Shown in pieces: positions 6,133-13,363 of a stretch of 13,363 nucleotides of DNA. The position numbers were made by a program, and so were the translations under genes. The number at the start of each line of letters is the position of its first letter. Within the stretch, counting starts at the first letter, position 1. The notes under the pieces are model-generated. The model ran no database searches and was not told the origin of the DNA. It saw nothing but the letters and a program-made list of their open reading frames with translations. The stretch is from contig JAEZJA010000021.1 of assembly GCA_023415895.1 (NCBI GenBank), positions 1 to 13,363 of the forward strand. The letters are read 5' to 3'. This DNA is from Bacillota bacterium (lineage in GTDB: Bacteria; Bacillota; Clostridia; Oscillospirales; Acutalibacteraceae).

Positions 6133-7809
6133 ATGTCGAACTGGTTTGATGAAAACAACACGACACCCGAGAACAAGGACACCCCGCTCACAGATGAAAA
6201 ACAGGATCAAAGTTTTGTGCCCTCGGAATCTGACCGAGAGGAGCACGAGACACCGACAGAGGCTTTGGAAAAGAAAGAGAGCTTTTCTCAGCCTTCTTCG
6301 GAGGAACCGGCCGCGCCACCCACTTCGGAACCATCCGCCGGGTGGTACACCAGTCCATCGGTATCCAATCCCACCTCCTGGAACAGCACCGGAGCAAGCC
6401 AACAACCTCCCTACCAAACAGGCAATACCGGGAGCACCTATCATTACGGCGTGAATTCTGGCAACCCGGTTCCAAACAGCACGAACAATTATCAGCAACC
6501 GTATCCTTCCCAGCAAAATGGGTATCCGGTACAAAACAGCTATCAGCCCCAGGGTGGGTATGATCCGTATGCGTGGCAGCGTGCGCAGAACCAGCGTCCT
6601 GCTCAGCCGCCTGTGCAGCCCCCCAAACCGCCAAAAAAGAAAAAGAAAGGTGCCGCGATTGCGATCGCCACGCTGGGAGTTGTCTGTGCGGCAGCGATTG
6701 TGACGCTGTCCGTGCTGTTGGCAATGGCCATTAACAATAAGGGGGCACTGCCCAACGGCGGCACGTCTTCGCAGACGACCTCTGGCCCCACATCCAATTC
6801 CAACGCACCGACATTACAGATTGAGGCTGAGGATGAGGATGCGGGCAACCTGACCACAGCGTCCATTGTGGCCTTGAATCTGGATTCCACCGTTGTTATC
6901 ACCACCTATACGAAATCGGCTTCCAACTTTGGAAACTTCCAGTTTGGAAACGATGACCAGCTAACCGAAGCGGGTGCGGCAACCGGGATTATTATGACAG
7001 CCGACGGCTATATCATTACCAACTGGCATGTGGTTGTCAATGAAAACACCGGTGAAAAGTATGACCGTGTGGATGTAAAAACGTATGACGGAACGGAGTA
7101 TAAAGGGGCCGAAGTCGTGGGCGCCGACCAGTCGACCGACCTTGCGGTCATCAAGATTTATGCTTCGGGCTTGAACGCGGCTGAATTTGGCGATTCTGCC
7201 AACCTCAAGTTGGGCGACAAGATCGTAGCCATCGGCAACGCTGGCGGACTTAACTGGACAACGACACAGGGCATTGTGTCCGGTCTTGCGCGGGATGTGT
7301 ATGAAGATACGGGCTATGCGATCAAATGCCTGCAAGTGGATGCCGCCATCAACCCCGGCAACTCTGGAGGACCTCTGCTCAATTCCCAGGGTAAGGTTGT
7401 GGGAATCAACTCGGCGAAAATTGTGGCAAGCGGCTATGAGGGATTGGGCTTTTCCATCCCGATTAATGAAGCCAAGACGATCATTGACGATTTGGTGGCC
7501 TATGGCTATGTCAAAGGACGTGTTCAGCTGGGCATCAAGGGCGTGACGATCACACAAAGCGGTTACGAAGGATTCCGCATCAGCGAGATTAGCTCGAATT
7601 CTTGCTTCAGCGGCACCAACGCGGCCGTGGGCGATATCATTGTGGGTGTCGAAGGCACAAAAGTCACCAATTATGCCATGCTTCGCAGTGAGCTGGCTAA
7701 GCATAAGGTTGGGGACACCATTACCATCAATCTGATGCGTGTGAACACACGCACAGGTGAAAAAAACAACTTCTCAGTACAGGTAACCCTCCAGGAATCC
7801 CAGGGATAA
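6133..7809 (+). CDS. Membrane-anchored HtrA/DegP-type serine protease with PDZ domain
   Basis: Degrades or chaperones misfolded proteins at the outer face of the membrane. The 558-residue protein has a 165-residue N-terminal region rich in Pro, Ser, Gln, Asn and Tyr that looks disordered (QQPYPSQQ, NSYQPQGGYDPY), then a lysine stop (KPPKKKKKG) and one transmembrane helix (about 174-200), which predicts a cytoplasmic N-terminus and an exported protease. The trypsin-like domain carries the full triad: H299 in ITNWHVV, D336 in STDLAVIKI and S411 in NPGNSGGPLL. A PDZ domain follows (about 463-537; VQLGIKGVTI, AVGDIIVGVEGTKV). GAAAGGA lies 11 nt before the ATG at 6133, slightly long spacing. Its place after a two-component pair matches the CssRS-HtrA and CiaRH-HtrA arrangement, so regulation by that pair is likely but inferred. 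No residue needed for catalysis is missing. Confidence 0.95.
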   Translation: MSNWFDENNTTPENKDTPLTDEKQDQSFVPSESDREEHETPTEALEKKESFSQPSSEEPAAPPTSEPSAGWYTSPSVSNPTSWNSTGASQQPPYQTGNTGSTYHYGVNSGNPVPNSTNNYQQPYPSQQNGYPVQNSYQPQGGYDPYAWQRAQNQRPAQPPVQPPKPPKKKKKGAAIAIATLGVVCAAAIVTLSVLLAMAINNKGALPNGGTSSQTTSGPTSNSNAPTLQIEAEDEDAGNLTTASIVALNLDSTVVITTYTKSASNFGNFQFGNDDQLTEAGAATGIIMTADGYIITNWHVVVNENTGEKYDRVDVKTYDGTEYKGAEVVGADQSTDLAVIKIYASGLNAAEFGDSANLKLGDKIVAIGNAGGLNWTTTQGIVSGLARDVYEDTGYAIKCLQVDAAINPGNSGGPLLNSQGKVVGINSAKIVASGYEGLGFSIPINEAKTIIDDLVAYGYVKGRVQLGIKGVTITQSGYEGFRISEISSNSCFSGTNAAVGDIIVGVEGTKVTNYAMLRSELAKHKVGDTITINLMRVNTRTGEKNNFSVQVTLQESQG

Positions 7810-7817
7810 GGGCAAAA

Positions 7818-7871
7818 AACAAAACAGCCTATTCGGAACGTGCTCGTCCGTTCCGAATAGGCTGTTTTGTT
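7818..7871. terminator. Perfect 23-bp inverted-repeat terminator between convergent genes
   Basis: The arm at 7818-7840 is exactly complementary to 7849-7871, with an 8-nt loop. The arms end in AACAAAAC and GTTTTGTT, so on either strand the stem runs into a T-rich stretch, the usual design of a bidirectional intrinsic terminator. It separates the protease gene from the convergent esterase-like gene. Confidence 0.85.
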
Positions 7872-7890
7872 GTATTGGAAGCTGGTGGAA

Positions 7891-8919
7891 TCACATGCCC
7901 TCTCGCAGAAGGGAACACAGCCTCACGGAGGCGGTTTCAAAGCCAGCAACAGTGGGATGCATACGGTCGATGCCAATTTCAACGCCCCATGAGCGCGTAT
8001 CTACAAACCGGATGTTTTTGTCAAAAAGCGAGGACTTTGCGGCGGCCGTAATCGCTGAAAGGCGAAGACCAAGAGCGTTGTCGGCGAAGGGAAGAATCAA
8101 ATAAAAGGGTACGCACGGGTAGAGCGTGCGAAGATTGCGGATAAACATCTGGTAGGATTCAATGAACAAAGTGCAATTTTGCCGATTGATCAGCCAGTCG
8201 TTTGTTCCGATGTTCACGAGGATGGCGTTAGGATGCTCATATGCATACGAGGCTGGGGTGTAGGGAGCACTTTGACTGACGCCTTCCAGATGAAAATAGG
8301 CTTTTTCCATGCCGATGTGGCTTTGCTGGCCTGAGGGGAGCTTATAGCCTCCCCAACCGTTGCGCAGGGCAATGGAACCGCGGGCAATCGTTGTGTGTTC
8401 ACAGTCGAGAGAACCACAAATGCTTGTGGAATAACTGGTATCCATGGCTGTCAGCATATCGCCGATAAATTGAATCTCAACAGGTTTGTCTTTAGGCTTG
8501 CTTACAATACTGTCGGCACTGACCCCTATGTCTGTGAAGATGAGCGGCTCGCTGTGGTGTACATTCATAATTGTGATGGTATGGGTACCCGGCTGGAGAT
8601 GGGGGTAGACTATGCTTTCCCCAACCATCACCGTGAGGTGTTGCTCAGAGCCATCCATGGTAATACAAAGTTGAAAGCTGGAAACACTAGGATGGGAGCC
8701 GAGGTTGAGCTGAAAGGTGCTTCCCGTAAAGGTAAGGCTCACATAAGCACGACACCAGTATGCGACGGCTGCTGTCGAGTGAATATCCCAGCGCCCATGA
8801 TAATTCAGCTTGTCATCATTCGGGGGGATAACACGCACGCCGCTTGTTGTTTCCCGCTGTGATGGAACTTGATTGGGAGATAAAATGACTGCCTGAGCAC
8901 ATCTGCAGCGAATCGACAT
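7891..8919 (-). CDS. SGNH/GDSL esterase-like protein (CE2-type architecture) with nucleophile Ser replaced by Met
   Basis: A 342-residue protein with an N-terminal beta-sandwich-like region (about 28-135; LNYHGRWDIH, YVSLTFTGSTFQLNL), as in carbohydrate esterase family 2, followed by an SGNH hydrolase domain (about 146-342). Block I reads IQFIGDMLTA (149-158): the catalytic Ser of GDS is Met155. Block III GTND (238-241) and block V DRMHP (D318, H321) are normal. Family members deacetylate polysaccharides with a Ser-His pair; without the serine this copy may bind a glycan without cleaving it, or be inactive. No signal peptide is evident, so it is probably cytoplasmic. The ATG at 8919 is preceded by AGGTG; the frame stays open to 9081, but the promoter at 9087-9115 rules out a start there. 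It is convergent with the protease gene and divergent from the radical SAM gene. Confidence 0.82.
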   Translation of the reverse strand: MSIRCRCAQAVILSPNQVPSQRETTSGVRVIPPNDDKLNYHGRWDIHSTAAVAYWCRAYVSLTFTGSTFQLNLGSHPSVSSFQLCITMDGSEQHLTVMVGESIVYPHLQPGTHTITIMNVHHSEPLIFTDIGVSADSIVSKPKDKPVEIQFIGDMLTAMDTSYSTSICGSLDCEHTTIARGSIALRNGWGGYKLPSGQQSHIGMEKAYFHLEGVSQSAPYTPASYAYEHPNAILVNIGTNDWLINRQNCTLFIESYQMFIRNLRTLYPCVPFYLILPFADNALGLRLSAITAAAKSSLFDKNIRFVDTRSWGVEIGIDRMHPTVAGFETASVRLCSLLREGM

Positions 8920-9086
8920 TGTATCACCTACAATTACAGAATAGAAAGCAATGAAGCGATATCCGCAATAGGTTCTACGGGGAACAAGCAGAAAATGATG
9001 CTCGCGGGAGAAGGAGAAGAGCGGGCCAGGTCGCGTAATCGTATCTTTTTTGGATAGCAAGTTTGTAAACACACGGAACATCTTTA

Positions 9087-9115
9087 ATTATACGGCAAAA
9101 CCGAGGGCAAAGCAA
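9087..9115 (-). promoter_or_regulatory. Sigma-A-type promoter of the esterase-like gene
   Basis: On the minus strand TTGCTT (9115-9110), 17 bp, then TATAAT (9092-9087), a perfect -10. Transcription would begin near 9080, giving an unusually long leader of about 160 nt before the ATG at 8919. Confidence 0.65.
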
Positions 9116-9125
9116 GGGCTGTATA

Positions 9126-9159
9126 CGGTTGGTATAATTATAATATTTAGTACCAAACG
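9126..9159. repeat. Imperfect 34-bp palindrome, possible operator
   Basis: CGGTTGGTA (9126-9134) and TACCAAACG (9151-9159) are inverted copies with one mismatch in nine, separated by 16 bp of almost pure A/T that includes two overlapping TATAAT-like words. It lies between the two divergent promoters, just upstream of the -35 box of the esterase-like gene. A repressor or activator site is plausible; a chance hairpin is the alternative. Confidence 0.4.
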
Positions 9160-9211
9160 ATGGCCATTGTTCTGTCAAAACAAAAAAATTAGAGGATGTA
9201 AGAACATATGT

Positions 9212-9240
9212 TTGACATTCTCGAAACTTTGTTCTATACT
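9212..9240 (+). promoter_or_regulatory. Near-consensus sigma-A promoter of the radical SAM/DUF4130 genes
   Basis: TTGACA (9212-9217, perfect -35), 17 bp, TATACT (9235-9240, five of six). Expected transcript start is near 9247, which leaves a leader of about 24 nt containing GAGAGGG before the ATG at 9271. This excludes the in-frame ATG at 9208 as the translation start. Confidence 0.8.
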
Positions 9241-9270
9241 AATGCTAATCTCATGAGAGAGGGTCAGCCA

Positions 9271-10602
9271 ATGGATCTGATGGAAAAGCTCAGCATCTTG
9301 ACCGATTCTGCAAAATACGATGTGGCCTGCACGTCAAGCGGTTCCAGCCGCGGAGGCGTCAAGGGGGCAATTGGCAGCACCTGTGCGCCGGGGATTTGCC
9401 ACAGTTTTGCCGCCGACGGGCGCTGCATATCGCTGTTAAAAGTTTTGATGACCAATTACTGCACCTATGACTGTCAGTATTGTGTCAACCGTTGCTCCAA
9501 CGACGTGCCTCGCGCGGCCTTCACTCCCGAGGAGCTGGCCAGCCTGACGATGGAGTTTTATAAGCGCAATTATATTGAGGGGCTGTTTTTGAGTTCGGGG
9601 GTGCTGCAGAGCGCGGATGCATCCATGGAGCGCATGTGTCGAACCTTGGAGCTGCTGCGTCACGAGCACCGGTTCAACGGCTATATCCATGCCAAAGCCA
9701 TTCCCGGCTGCTCCCCTGAGCTTGTGACCAAACTGGGGCTCCTTTGCGATCGGTTGAGCGTCAACATTGAATTGCCCAGCGAAAAAAGCCTGCATCTGCT
9801 GGCACCGGATAAACCCAAGGAGTCTATTCTTCGGCCCATGGGTGCTATCCGCGACACCTTGTCGCAAAACAAACAGGAGCTGGCGGTTTACCGTCATGCG
9901 CCGACCTTTGCGCCGGCCGGTCAGAGTACGCAGTTGATCATCGGGGCGACTCCCGACACGGATTGGCAGATTCTGCGTCTCAGCCAAAGCTTATACAAAA
10001 GGTATTCTCTCAAGCGCGTCTTTTATTCGGCGTATATTCCTGTGGGCACGCATGCGCTGCTTCCCAAAAATCAACCCGTACCTCTGCTGCGGGAGCACCG
10101 GCTGTATCAGGCCGACTGGCTGCTGCGTTTTTATGGGTTTCAGGCAGAGGAGCTGCTCAGCGACGCGCAGCCCACTCTGGATCCGCTACTCGACCCCAAG
10201 TGCCATTGGGCAGTGGGGCATCTCTCCAGCTTTCCGGTCGAAGTCAACCGCGCAGACAAGGAATTGCTGCTGCGCGTGCCGGGCATCGGCCCAAAATCGG
10301 CCGGGCGCATTTTGACCGCCCGACGCGCCGGGGCTCTGACGTTTGATGATCTCAAAAAAATGGGAGTCGTGATGAAACGCGCGGTGTATTTTGTGACCTG
10401 CAAGGGCAAGCTTTATCCCGGCGTCCAATTCACACCTTCGTTTATTTATCAGAATCTTGTGGCGGATACCCGCCGCAATCCGCGCGATGAGCCGTTTTTG
10501 CCTCAGACGGAGCAGCTGTCTCTGTTTGCCTCGCCTGCGGCACCGGCGTTGTCCGCACCAATTTCGGGAGGCGAGCTTGTATGGCCGAATACAGCCGGTT
10601 GA
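9271..10602 (+). CDS. Putative DNA modification/repair radical SAM protein
   Basis: A 443-residue protein of the family I know as TIGR03916 (putative DNA modification/repair radical SAM protein), found next to a DUF4130 protein. No reaction has been assigned that I know of. The iron-sulfur cluster motif is CTYDCQYC (C64, C68, C71), with an unusual set of further cysteines nearby (C38, C43, C52, C75). The C-terminal part has a helix-hairpin-helix, LLLRVPGIGPKSAGRIL (332-348), a DNA-backbone-binding element. The flexible tail contains QLSLF (415-419), which fits the sliding-clamp-binding consensus. The start at 9271 follows from the promoter at 9212-9240, the GAGAGGG site and the family N-terminus MDLMEKLSILTDSAKYDV. 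It overlaps the next gene by 22 nt, so translation is coupled. It probably acts on DNA or a DNA-bound nucleotide; the substrate is unknown. Confidence 0.92.
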   Translation: MDLMEKLSILTDSAKYDVACTSSGSSRGGVKGAIGSTCAPGICHSFAADGRCISLLKVLMTNYCTYDCQYCVNRCSNDVPRAAFTPEELASLTMEFYKRNYIEGLFLSSGVLQSADASMERMCRTLELLRHEHRFNGYIHAKAIPGCSPELVTKLGLLCDRLSVNIELPSEKSLHLLAPDKPKESILRPMGAIRDTLSQNKQELAVYRHAPTFAPAGQSTQLIIGATPDTDWQILRLSQSLYKRYSLKRVFYSAYIPVGTHALLPKNQPVPLLREHRLYQADWLLRFYGFQAEELLSDAQPTLDPLLDPKCHWAVGHLSSFPVEVNRADKELLLRVPGIGPKSAGRILTARRAGALTFDDLKKMGVVMKRAVYFVTCKGKLYPGVQFTPSFIYQNLVADTRRNPRDEPFLPQTEQLSLFASPAAPALSAPISGGELVWPNTAG

Positions 10603-11483
10603 CAGGCGGGATTGTACTTCAATATGATGACAGCTTTGAGGGACTGCTGACCGCTATTTTTGAGTCTTATCGTCGCAAGCCTATGCCGGTATCGGTTGTG
10701 GGCGCTCAGCATCAGCGATTGCTCGGCGTGGAATACGAAACCATCACAACCGATGACAGCAAAGCCGAGCGTGTAATTGCCGGTATCGAGAAGACAATCG
10801 GCGGGGATGTCTACGAGCGGATTTGGACAGGGTTTCTGTCCTGTCAACCGGACAAAGGGGACATCATTTATCAGTATATTCGTTTAGGGATGCATCTCGG
10901 ACACGCTGTTCATCAGCATCTGACGGATGAGCGCGTGATGGCCATGGATAAGCTTGCGTCCTTGGTGGGCAAGGAATCCTCACAGCTGATCGAGTTTGTG
11001 CGGTTTTCGCGCATGGAGGGCGGGGTATATTACGCAAAAATCCAACCCGACAATGAGGTGATTCCCCTGATGATGCCTTTTTTTGTCGACCGCTTTCAGA
11101 CCCACCCCTTTATCATTCACGATACCGACCGGCAGAGTGCAGGAGTATCCACACCCCAAGGGTGGTTTCTGACCTCGACGGCGGATATGGAGCTGCCGTC
11201 GCTTGCCGATGACGAGTGGGATTATCGCCGTCTGTGGAAACGATTTTACGACACCATTGCGATCAAAGAGCGCATCAACCCCCAGCTGCGCCGCCAGCAC
11301 ATGCCCAAGCGTTTCTGGCGCAATATCACCGAGATGACCATGCCTGAGACAGATCAAGAGGCGGCGTCCCCCACACTGCCTTCTGATATCAGCCGGGCTG
11401 CGGTGCAAAACGTATGCTTTGCACCACAGCCCGGCGATCCCCCAAAACTAGGAGAGAAAGATATCGATCAATTGCAGTCATAA
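10581..11483 (+). CDS. DUF4130 protein, partner of the radical SAM enzyme (probable DNA metabolism protein)
   Basis: A 300-residue cytoplasmic protein of the DUF4130 / TIGR03915 family, known almost only as the neighbour of the radical SAM protein encoded upstream. The N-terminus has the hallmark YDDSFEGLLTAIFESY (15-30). Further family blocks are GDIIYQYIRLG (93-103), LIEFVRFSRMEGGVYYA (136-152), PFFVDRF (166-172), and the end MPKRFWRNITE (241-251). Some relatives are fused to a uracil-DNA glycosylase domain; no such domain is present here. Residues 252-300 form a Pro/Gln/Asp-rich tail beyond the usual end, probably disordered. GGGAGG lies 9 nt before the ATG, inside the upstream gene. The stop lies 2 nt from the stop of the convergent flavodoxin-like gene and no terminator is visible. 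The role in DNA metabolism is inferred from the conserved pairing. Confidence 0.9.
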   Translation: MAEYSRLTGGIVLQYDDSFEGLLTAIFESYRRKPMPVSVVGAQHQRLLGVEYETITTDDSKAERVIAGIEKTIGGDVYERIWTGFLSCQPDKGDIIYQYIRLGMHLGHAVHQHLTDERVMAMDKLASLVGKESSQLIEFVRFSRMEGGVYYAKIQPDNEVIPLMMPFFVDRFQTHPFIIHDTDRQSAGVSTPQGWFLTSTADMELPSLADDEWDYRRLWKRFYDTIAIKERINPQLRRQHMPKRFWRNITEMTMPETDQEAASPTLPSDISRAAVQNVCFAPQPGDPPKLGEKDIDQLQS

Positions 11484-11485
11484 AT

Positions 11486-11935
11486 CTAAAGGAATTCCCG
11501 TCTTGCCAGACACTTACCACGCTGACAGACAATGCTTGTGCAGCGGCCATGCTGTACGCCGAGCAGCGAATCCATGGCTTGGAGCGTGCCCGGATAGCGC
11601 ATGGGGAAGCTGAAATGTACGAGGATATAGTCAACGGCTTTGATCTGGCCGTGTGCCAGTTCCAGAAATGATCGAATGGGGGCACAGATACTTAATACCC
11701 AGATTGGCGAACAGATTATGACTTTGTCGTACTGCGTGAGGTCGGTTGACAGCGGTTGGATGGGCATTCCCCATCGATGCATACCAAAACGGCCGCACCA
11801 CCAGAAACCGAAAAATCCCGACGTGCGTTCACTTGTTTTAACTTCGTAAAGTGCAGCATCCAGCTGTTGTGCAGTCTGCTCTGCCACGCGGCGGACAGAC
11901 CCTTTACGGGAAAAGTACACCACCAATGTTTTCAT
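11486..11935 (-). CDS. Flavodoxin-like protein
   Basis: A 149-residue protein with a flavodoxin fold: first strand and phosphate-binding loop TLVVYFSRKGSVRRVAE (3-19), then DLTQYDKVIICSPIWVLSICAPIRSFL (65-91), the strand and loop that usually contact the flavin ring. Family members carry FMN and transfer electrons or reduce quinones. The loop reads S-R-K-G-S-V rather than the classical T/S-x-T-G-x-T, a variant seen in flavodoxin-family proteins of unknown partner. The start at 11935 is set by GGAGAAACGGAC upstream and by an ATGA overlap with the stop of the membrane protein gene, so the two are translationally coupled. FMN binding is likely; electron donor and acceptor are unknown. It could serve anaerobic redox enzymes, possibly the nearby radical SAM protein, but it is on the opposite strand and that link is speculative. 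Confidence 0.85.
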   Translation of the reverse strand: MKTLVVYFSRKGSVRRVAEQTAQQLDAALYEVKTSERTSGFFGFWWCGRFGMHRWGMPIQPLSTDLTQYDKVIICSPIWVLSICAPIRSFLELAHGQIKAVDYILVHFSFPMRYPGTLQAMDSLLGVQHGRCTSIVCQRGKCLARREFL

Positions 11936-12354
11936 GTCCGTTTCTCCTGTATGTACAGCCGCCAGCCCGTTAAGGCTTCCAGCAAGCCGAACACAAAGTA
12001 GAGGGGGGACAGGAAGTTTAACGGGAATGCGACAAACTGAATGCAGATCCACAGCATAAGGATCACGCCGCAGCCGATGCCCAGTCGGCTTGCGAAGGGC
12101 GAGTTTCGAAAGAGAAAGACCGCGGTTGTCAGTTGGGTCAGCCCGTTGACAACCAGCAGAGCCACCCCCGGGAAGACATAATTCTGAAAGAGCTGCTGCG
12201 CAAACGGCAGCACCTGAAAATAGGGGAGCAGAACATCCATGCGCATGGCTTTGCCGCTGGGGTCAACTAACATGCCGGTCGCTCCCAAAACAGCACCGAG
12301 GCCAATGAAAAGACACCAGCAGACTAAAATTCGCCGAAGTGTTTTTTGCTTCAC
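11932..12354 (-). CDS. Four-helix integral membrane protein of unknown function
   Basis: I do not recognise a family. The 140-residue product has four predicted membrane helices, at about 9-30 (ILVCWCLFIGLGAVLGATG), 60-82 (VFPGVALLVVNGLTQL), 90-110 (GIGCGVILMLWICIQFVAF) and 114-131 (FLSPLYFVFGLLEALTGW). The N-terminus is basic (KQKTLRR) and the C-terminus short and charged. The start is taken as GTG 12354, because GGGAGG lies 8 nt before it; the TTG at 12360 is only 2 nt from that site and too close. It overlaps the flavodoxin-like gene by 4 nt (ATGA), which suggests the two products are made in fixed ratio and may act together, perhaps as a small membrane redox unit; it has no heme or cluster motif to support this. 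metK lies 73 bp upstream on the same strand, with no terminator seen. Confidence 0.78.
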   Translation of the reverse strand: MKQKTLRRILVCWCLFIGLGAVLGATGMLVDPSGKAMRMDVLLPYFQVLPFAQQLFQNYVFPGVALLVVNGLTQLTTAVFLFRNSPFASRLGIGCGVILMLWICIQFVAFPLNFLSPLYFVFGLLEALTGWRLYIQEKRT

Positions 12355-12427: not shown

Positions 12428-13363
12428 TTACAAACCGAGAACCTGCCGGAGCGCCTGGGCACGGTCGGTTTTCTCCCAGGCCACGCCGAGATCTTCCCGG
12501 CCAATATGACCGTAGGCGGCCAACGGACGGAAAATGGGACGGCGCAGGTCGAGCGCGTCAATGATGGCGGCAGGACGAAAATCAAAGACGGTTGAAACGG
12601 CTTGCGCCAGTTTGTCATCGGATACAATGCCCGTTCCCTCGGTGTCCACCAGAATGGAGACAGGGTGGGCAACGCCGATGGCGTAGGCCAGCTGCAGCTC
12701 ACAGCGTTTGGCTAAACCCGCAGCCACCACGTTCTTTGCCGCATAGCGTGCCATGTAGCAGGCCGAGCGGTCAACCTTGGTCGGGTCTTTTCCCGAAAAG
12801 GCGCCGCCGCCGTGCCGCGCATAACCACCGTAGGTATCTACGATAATTTTGCGACCGGTCAGACCGCTGTCACCCTGAGGGCCTCCGACCACAAAGCGCC
12901 CGGTCGGGTTGACAAAGATTTTTGTTTGCTCATCCAGGAGTTCTGCTGGAATGATGGGGCGGATAACGTGCTCAATGACATCGGCGCGGATCGTACTCAG
13001 CTGCACATCTTCGCTGTGTTGAGAGGAGACCACCACCGCATCGACACGAACCGGTTTATTACCATCGTATTCCACCGTGACTTGGGTTTTGCCATCGGGA
13101 CGAAGGTAGGGAAGAAGACCGCTTTTTCGAACATCGGTGAGTTGCTTGGCAAGCTTGTGTGCCAAAGAAATGGGAAGCGGCATGAGTTCGGGCGTTTCAT
13201 CGCAGGCGAACCCGAACATCAGACCCTGATCACCCGCACCCTGGTTCAGGCGCTCTTCAGGGCTGCGATCCACGCCCCTGGCAATGTCGGGCGACTGCTT
13301 GTCGTAAGCCACAAGCACCGCGCAGCCTTTGTAGTCGATACCGAATTCAGTGTTGTCGTAGCC
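12428..13363 (-). CDS. metK: S-adenosylmethionine synthetase (methionine adenosyltransferase), N-terminus cut
   Basis: Makes S-adenosylmethionine from methionine and ATP. The C-terminal 311 residues are present; about 85-90 N-terminal residues lie beyond the window. The frame is open to the edge ([15 protein letters not shown] precedes the first internal GTG at 13318). Both family signatures are seen: [12 protein letters not shown] (about nt 13205-13240), and [16 protein letters not shown], the phosphate-binding loop. Other conserved blocks are [21 protein letters not shown] and [11 protein letters not shown]. The C-terminus ([15 protein letters not shown]) is normal. Any SAM riboswitch would be upstream of the start and outside the window. 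The product is the cosubstrate of both RsmA and the radical SAM enzyme encoded here, but metK is universal, so proximity alone proves nothing. Confidence 0.97.

Follow-up and report, generated by a model that had tools for sequence, protein, structure and literature searches.

A radical SAM-DUF4130 gene pair under putative LexA control and its possible role in processing DNA lesions

Radical S-adenosylmethionine (SAM) proteins of the family TIGR03916 (rSAM_link_UDG), which we take to be the same family as COG4277, are known from two settings that closely resemble the locus described here. In Clostridium acetobutylicum, CAC3343 bears this family name and is followed by a gene of unknown function, CAC3344, and LexA control is predicted for the two genes in the portion of PMC3828012 drawn on here. 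In Bacteroidetes, a "UDG base excision repair" operon, COG1573-COG4277, holds a member of the same radical SAM family and is under SOS control according to passages of PMC8565304, which also cite reports for Verrucomicrobia and Alphaproteobacteria; SOS control of the family is already partly known, as reported or predicted for some relatives. Here we analyze a two-gene unit in a stretch of 13,363 nucleotides from an Acutalibacteraceae bacterium (metagenome-like contig JAEZJA010000021.1; hereafter "the window"), in which a TIGR03916 gene overlaps a gene encoding a DUF4130 protein (TIGR03915). The two families are near-obligate partners, the radical SAM protein carries three extra cysteines that are conserved throughout the family, and LexA-type boxes lie upstream of many relatives; on a narrow balance we favor the reading that the pair would be an SOS-inducible two-protein complex that reverses or converts a DNA base lesion.

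We found no essential difference between the window pair and CAC3343-CAC3344, whose second gene we infer to be DUF4130; the window pair is one more unremarkable example of two orphan families already known to go together. The Bacteroidetes operon differs in having a uracil-DNA glycosylase (UDG); in the window the second protein is DUF4130 only, and no UDG superfamily domain was detected in either protein with NCBIfam and Pfam profiles, which excludes "UDG excision" as a reading of the pair itself. A third comparison is with the spore photoproduct lyase SplB, likewise a damage-linked radical SAM protein; excerpts of PMC3765255 place SplB-like radical SAM proteins next to DUF4130, and a figure legend there calls DUF4130 a predicted mutagenesis-related enzyme. 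The window protein is unlike SplB in belonging to another family by profile (no SPL family model is among its 13 NCBIfam matches with E ≤ 1) and in having the three family-wide cysteines and a helix-hairpin-helix. The open-licence literature that we searched contained no reaction or structure for TIGR03916 or TIGR03915. The locus comprises the following features:

9201..9214, + strand: LexA/SOS-type box AGAACATATGTTTG, differing from CGAACRNRYGTTYG at 1 position and sharing bases with the -35 hexamer
9212..9240, + strand: sigma-70-like promoter TTGACA-17-TATACT, matching 11/12 consensus positions
9255..9263, + strand: probable ribosome-binding site of the radical SAM gene (GAGAGAGGG), inferred from sequence
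9271..10602, + strand: radical SAM protein gene, TIGR03916 (rSAM_link_UDG), 443 amino acids, open reading frame with profile match
10566..10571, + strand: probable ribosome-binding site of the DUF4130 gene (GGGAGG), within the radical SAM gene, likewise inferred
10581..11483, + strand: DUF4130/TIGR03915 partner gene, 300 amino acids, open reading frame with profile match

The radical SAM protein scores 641.4 bits against TIGR03916 (cut-off 343.5; residues 3-418 on profile positions 1-414 of 415), and its partner scores 241.5 bits against TIGR03915 (cut-off 112.25; residues 13-252) and 162.6 bits against PF13566 (DUF4130; cut-off 27). These scores bear out both families as named in an initial annotation of this DNA; the profile search assigned the first protein to no other radical SAM group, and the general PF04055 (Radical_SAM) profile reaches 27.2 bits, slightly below its cut-off of 29.5. 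The same annotation had also listed a CxxxCxxC cluster motif (here C64, C68, and C71), a helix-hairpin-helix (approximately residues 322-355, where Pfam HHH_3 and HHH exceed their cut-offs and weak matches to the helix-hairpin-helices of ComEA and RuvA are found), the lack of a glycosylase domain, and a 22-nt gene overlap (the DUF4130 ATG at 10581 is upstream of the radical SAM stop at 10602), all of which we recovered. The radical SAM start given at 9208 in the list of open reading frames was rejected, as this position falls inside the promoter; a start at 9271 fits and agrees with the family start, while the in-frame ATG at 9253 may serve as an alternative. Among the matches listed (the best 120 of 361, and the best 120 of at least 7999 scored), relatives of the window proteins include Ruminococcaceae, Oscillospiraceae, and Acutalibacteraceae members; alignments A1 and A2 join the window's own protein to 65 and 29 of these listed relatives, respectively. 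In sequence searches against solved structures, the best match of the radical SAM protein had an E value of 0.044 and lay in the helix-hairpin-helix, and DUF4130 had none to an E value of 10.

Co-occurrence of the two families is close to complete. Among 199 genomes sampled from the phylum to which a Paenibacillus relative belongs, with DUF4130 scored at E ≤ 1e-10, the radical SAM protein is over its cut-off in 45, marking it as a widespread orphan, DUF4130 is present in 46, and both occur in 44 (Fisher p 1.5e-40). In G070, the sole genome with a partnerless radical SAM gene, 79 bases separate the end of that gene from the contig end, where a downstream neighbor would be cut off, and the two genomes with DUF4130 and no full radical SAM gene (G154 and G185) both hold radical SAM fragments. 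A second sample, of 149 genomes from the phylum that includes a Massiliimalia relative, gave 34 of 35 radical SAM genomes that also have DUF4130 (p 4.9e-30), although 34 of the 35 recur among the 199 and the samples are therefore not independent; in this sample 68 genomes match the radical SAM protein at E ≤ 1e-3, of which the 35 over the cut-off were counted, the others being weak or fragmentary, and the two extra DUF4130 genomes are G154, with its radical SAM fragment, and G119, with decayed pieces. At the curated cut-off DUF4130 is counted in fewer genomes (27/149 and 35/199) because a divergent subclass scores lower. DUF4130 lies ≤1 kb downstream of the radical SAM gene in 42 of the 44 genomes and elsewhere in the genome in 2; across 80 radical SAM loci from GTDB genomes, it is within 400 nt in 73, within ∼1.4 kb in 4 more, and elsewhere in the genome in 3. 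In G118 (L197 and L106) and G079 (L198 and L110) the two genes are far apart and both retained, with no LexA-type box of ≤2 mismatches upstream of either gene except a 2-mismatch site at -129 (L197), and in G119 (L185) they have apparently decayed together, leaving short pieces, one with internal stops.

LexA/SOS control of the pair, putative in this organism, is strongly supported by the regions upstream of its relatives. The box, which the initial annotation does not mention, is the sole site in the window with ≤1 mismatch to CGAACRNRYGTTYG, which we take to be the Gram-positive LexA box consensus; with a chance expectation of 0.26 over the entire window and at least one such site in 45/200 shuffles, it is not significant alone, and the upstream regions of relatives are therefore decisive. 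The promoter, correctly described in the initial annotation as near-consensus, is likewise weak evidence by itself, since 5 promoter-like sites turned up in a scan of positions 7800-12100, where 3.6 would be expected. When we searched the 200 bp upstream of the radical SAM gene in the 80 loci, a box with ≤1 mismatch was present in 32 (background, 0.0006 of random stretches from the same loci) and one with ≤2 mismatches in 57 (background, 0.031), with the caveat that the loci are related and the counts hence not independent; sites with ≤1 mismatch total only 41 in the 1.27 Mb of these loci. The divergent radical SAM subclass (409-430 bits) has a ≤1-mismatch box in 6 of 7 loci and a 2-mismatch box in the seventh, a count that leaves out two further members, G203 and G218. 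Alphaproteobacterial plasmid copies (Phaeobacter, Azospirillum, and Agrobacterium) have an exact GTTCN7GTTC upstream and the Caballeronia copy an exact CTGTN8ACAG, which are presumably the LexA motifs of these lineages; exact boxes were found in 4/4 alpha- and betaproteobacterial loci tried, starting 17 to 39 nt 5' of the start codon, and the lineage motif occurs once per 11-kb locus, but twice in Azospirillum. The breadth of the boxes over Oscillospirales, Paenibacillus, and Desulfosporosinus relatives had no account in the open-licence literature that we searched. The families had been described at the outset as linked to DNA by motif and neighborhood only; the restriction is not quite accurate, as LexA/SOS control of some relatives is already in the literature (PMC3828012 and PMC8565304) and has strong support here.

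Several observations weigh against this reading. No box at ≤2 mismatches was found within 200 bp upstream of the radical SAM gene in 23/80 loci, the radical SAM loci L183 and L198 have no LexA-type box, and in L197 and the plasmid copy of Pusillibacter the only sites carry 2 mismatches and lie beyond -120. Stand-alone DUF4130 genes had a box within 300 bp in 0/5 cases, the Acinetobacter copy has none of the three LexA motifs tried, and the Spirosoma copy has neither these three nor the two Bacteroidetes motifs given in the consulted part of PMC8565304. SOS control suits damage tolerance as much as repair, and the pair might instead mark or hypermodify DNA that is damaged or stalled, for example in aid of translesion synthesis or strand protection. 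According to sections of PMC5352715, nucleobases receive added groups from two-cluster radical SAM enzymes, TYW1 and MiaB among them, and one figure legend in PMC3765255 raises the possibility that the associated enzymes modify thymines. We nevertheless regard a DNA mark as unlikely, given that no modification has been observed and that the other window genes are not conserved next to the pair (response regulator, 8 of 80 loci; kinase, 4; rubrerythrin, 2; dCMP deaminase, 1).

The radical SAM protein itself carries a distinctive cysteine signature. We aligned 227 sequences, consisting of the window protein, loci with a radical SAM match of >200 bits and 900 nt, and 119 other listed matches; most of these are close relatives from Bacillota, and the same protein may be represented more than once. 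The CxxxCxxC motif is present in 227/227 and the longer pattern CX20-26CX8CX11CX3CX2C in 223/227, so that three extra cysteines, C20, C43, and C52 in the window protein, are family-wide. Four rows lack the longer pattern: P0149 and P0155 have short N-termini, and L183 (G074) and L181 (Gemmatirosa) score below the family cut-off. This conservation suggests that C20, C43, and C52 are ligands of a second, three-Cys iron-sulphur cluster. In the passages of PMC5352715 consulted, MoaA, TYW1, MiaB/RimO, and LipA similarly combine CX3CX2C with three more cysteines (N-terminal in TYW1 and LipA), and an auxiliary cluster with a potentially free iron site binds the substrate in MoaA and a co-substrate in TYW1; the spacing in TYW1 (CX12CX12C) and MoaA (CX2CX13C) differs from that of the putative cluster here. 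C311 and C377 were rejected as further ligands because they are not family-wide, with cysteine in 197 and 203 of the 227 rows, respectively, and C311 kept in 2/8 aligned diverse copies. L183 (2286-3419) and L181 (3665-5263) are radical SAM relatives slightly below the cut-off whose extra cysteines are altered or missing; G074, a fragmented assembly, has no DUF4130 match, and a profile scan of the 9-kb Gemmatirosa locus found none, so the two are possibly a sister family with another partner.

DUF4130 is predicted to adopt a DHH/DHHA1-like fold. Residues 5-213 of its model resemble RecJ, Cdc45, and NrnA, albeit with low TM-scores, and the fold matches extend to a nanoRNase, the C-Ala domain of AlaRS, and the PAP phosphatase 8a8k; at the DHH motif-I position, a D-[GD]-[ST]-x-[ED]-G motif is seen by eye in most stand-alone members. 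Speaking against this relationship, DH[HN], the DHH catalytic motif, is present in just 2/74 DUF4130 rows, no sequence-profile link to DHH proteins was detected with small alignments (9, 4, 3, and 7 proteins), and DUF4130 has an extra conserved C-terminal stretch (W219, R231, MPxx[YF]W at 241-246, and E251). An active DHH phosphoesterase is not favored, given the absent motif and the missing profile link.

These folds bear on two other classes of substrate. DHH phosphatases act on small nucleotides, and the presence of 8a8k among the matches would suit a pair whose substrate is a small metabolite or free nucleotide, with only indirect damage control. Matches of the radical SAM core to viperin and lipoyl synthase, and the GTP bound by the second cluster of MoaA (in excerpts of PMC5352715), point the same way. 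However, these core matches are of a kind common to radical SAM barrels, and the radical SAM model is poor, for which reason the absence of SplB from its listed fold matches also says little; with the helix-hairpin-helix, the fusion of DUF4130 to UdgX described below, and the SOS-type control all favoring polymeric DNA, we consider a metabolite substrate very improbable. The three box shapes, the near-obligate partner, and the three-Cys signature together make a damage-response enzyme likelier than a metabolic one. A damage-responsive tRNA or rRNA modification enzyme is also improbable: the tRNA-modifying MiaB and TYW1 have three-Cys auxiliary clusters (PMC5352715, in part), and nanoRNase and AlaRS C-Ala are among the DUF4130 matches, but ComEA and RuvA have related helix-hairpin-helices (weak matches; Pfam HHH over cut-off), and both the LexA-type boxes in three shapes and the UdgX fusion argue for DNA.

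Radical SAM matches occur in 158 plasmid and 10 phage records in all. Of seven annotated ones examined (an eighth has no annotation), four alpha- and betaproteobacterial records carry a DUF4130-UdgX fusion and three a DUF4130 alone, without UdgX (Pusillibacter, Spirosoma, and Acinetobacter, representing Bacillota, Bacteroidota, and Acinetobacter). The fused second genes, from Phaeobacter, Azospirillum, Caballeronia, and Agrobacterium, encode 471-492 residues and are annotated as UdgX family; by eye, GEQPGDQED is present in 4/4, an R-loop ending in His in 4/4, and the exact KRRIH in 2/4 (motif definitions from the consulted part of PMC10359453). The initial annotation had stated that some partners are fused to a uracil-DNA glycosylase, which is correct as to the fusion, but the domain is UdgX (4/7 annotated records), and its expectation that any glycosylase would have to be encoded elsewhere is not supported. 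UdgX is over its cut-off in 0/149 genomes, and a survey of co-occurrence with uracil-DNA glycosylases, as had been proposed, found no association (sub-cut-off family-4-like UDG in 21/35 pair-bearing versus 79/114 other genomes; p = 0.31). PF03167 proteins are present in 30/30 pair-bearing genomes tried but also in 13/14 control genomes; among the controls, Caulobacter matches UdgX, TIGR03915, and TIGR03916, and Bacteroides matches TIGR03915 and TIGR03916 only. A glycosylase elsewhere as a required partner was rejected on the strength of these counts. The stand-alone records and the UDG counts therefore identify the radical SAM protein and DUF4130 as the core and UdgX as an add-on of some lineages. 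The same data make it quite unlikely that the substrates of the pair are covalent DNA-protein or abasic-site products of the sort that a cross-linking UdgX leaves, with the fusion reflecting the preceding step: the UdgX motifs kept in all four fusions would suit such a role, but DUF4130 occurs without UdgX in the other three annotated records examined, and neither UdgX nor family-4-like UDG tracks the pair among the 149 genomes.

Returning to a lesion-processing complex, we think that the pair probably processes DNA lesions in general, and base repair or modification by radical chemistry is the most plausible reading; the DNA interpretation put forward initially is strengthened, and its glycosylase expectation weakened. 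In the mechanism that we propose, LexA bound to the box overlapping the -35 hexamer would repress the promoter until DNA damage lifts repression, and the overlapping genes would provide for joint synthesis of both proteins and formation of the complex. DUF4130, with its predicted RecJ/Cdc45/NrnA-like fold and the DHH catalytic motif lost, would be a DNA-holding scaffold, while the radical SAM protein would grip DNA by its helix-hairpin-helix and generate a 5'-deoxyadenosyl radical at the CX3CX2C cluster. A second [4Fe-4S] cluster on C20, C43, and C52 could anchor the damaged base or a co-substrate at its free iron site, and the base lesion would be reversed or converted directly rather than excised. 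Direct reversal is possible, though we place it below an even chance. Still more tentative, and on the doubtful side, is the proposal of a new class, in which an SOS-induced, direct-reversal, two-cluster radical SAM enzyme would grip the damaged base by its second iron-sulphur cluster while DUF4130, as a RecJ/Cdc45-type clamp stripped of catalysis, keeps the DNA in place, with UdgX as a proteobacterial add-on for covalent marking of the site.

The surroundings of the pair and its occurrence in phage records yielded some further observations. The flavodoxin (11486-12052) and MetK (12428-13318) genes of the window were considered as electron- and SAM-supply partners and are not supported, being found in 0/80 loci, several of which are short. 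A dCMP-deaminase-type gene (451-978, - strand) and a cytidine-deaminase gene (1078-1494, + strand) are divergent neighbors (PF00383), and a 20-pair inverted repeat at 7821-7868, terminator-like on both strands, lies between convergent HtrA-like and GDSL-esterase-like genes; no tRNA was found in the 13,363-base window. Phage records match DUF4130 in 11 cases and the radical SAM protein in 10, and a phage origin was rejected, as a scan of viral contigs gave no relative and the one phage-record neighborhood examined looks like bacterial chromosome. In L180 (CAKLQH020000003.1), a record named Acinetobacter phage MD-2021a, glyQ/glyS adjoin the pair and the DNA is by appearance bacterial chromosome; in PQ571268.1 (Bacteroides phage BKO1-TP1), the DUF4130 gene at 45696-46232 stands at the record end and may be either a carried gene or a piece of host DNA.

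Our analysis offers residues for mutants, namely C20, C43, and C52 of the radical SAM protein and R141, R171, W219, and R231 of DUF4130, together with an inducing condition. Direct reversal, if true, would add a repair chemistry to a short list. If the new-class reading is true, these orphan families would represent a damage-response route of repair separate from those of photolyase, SplB, AlkB, and Ada, present across several bacterial phyla.
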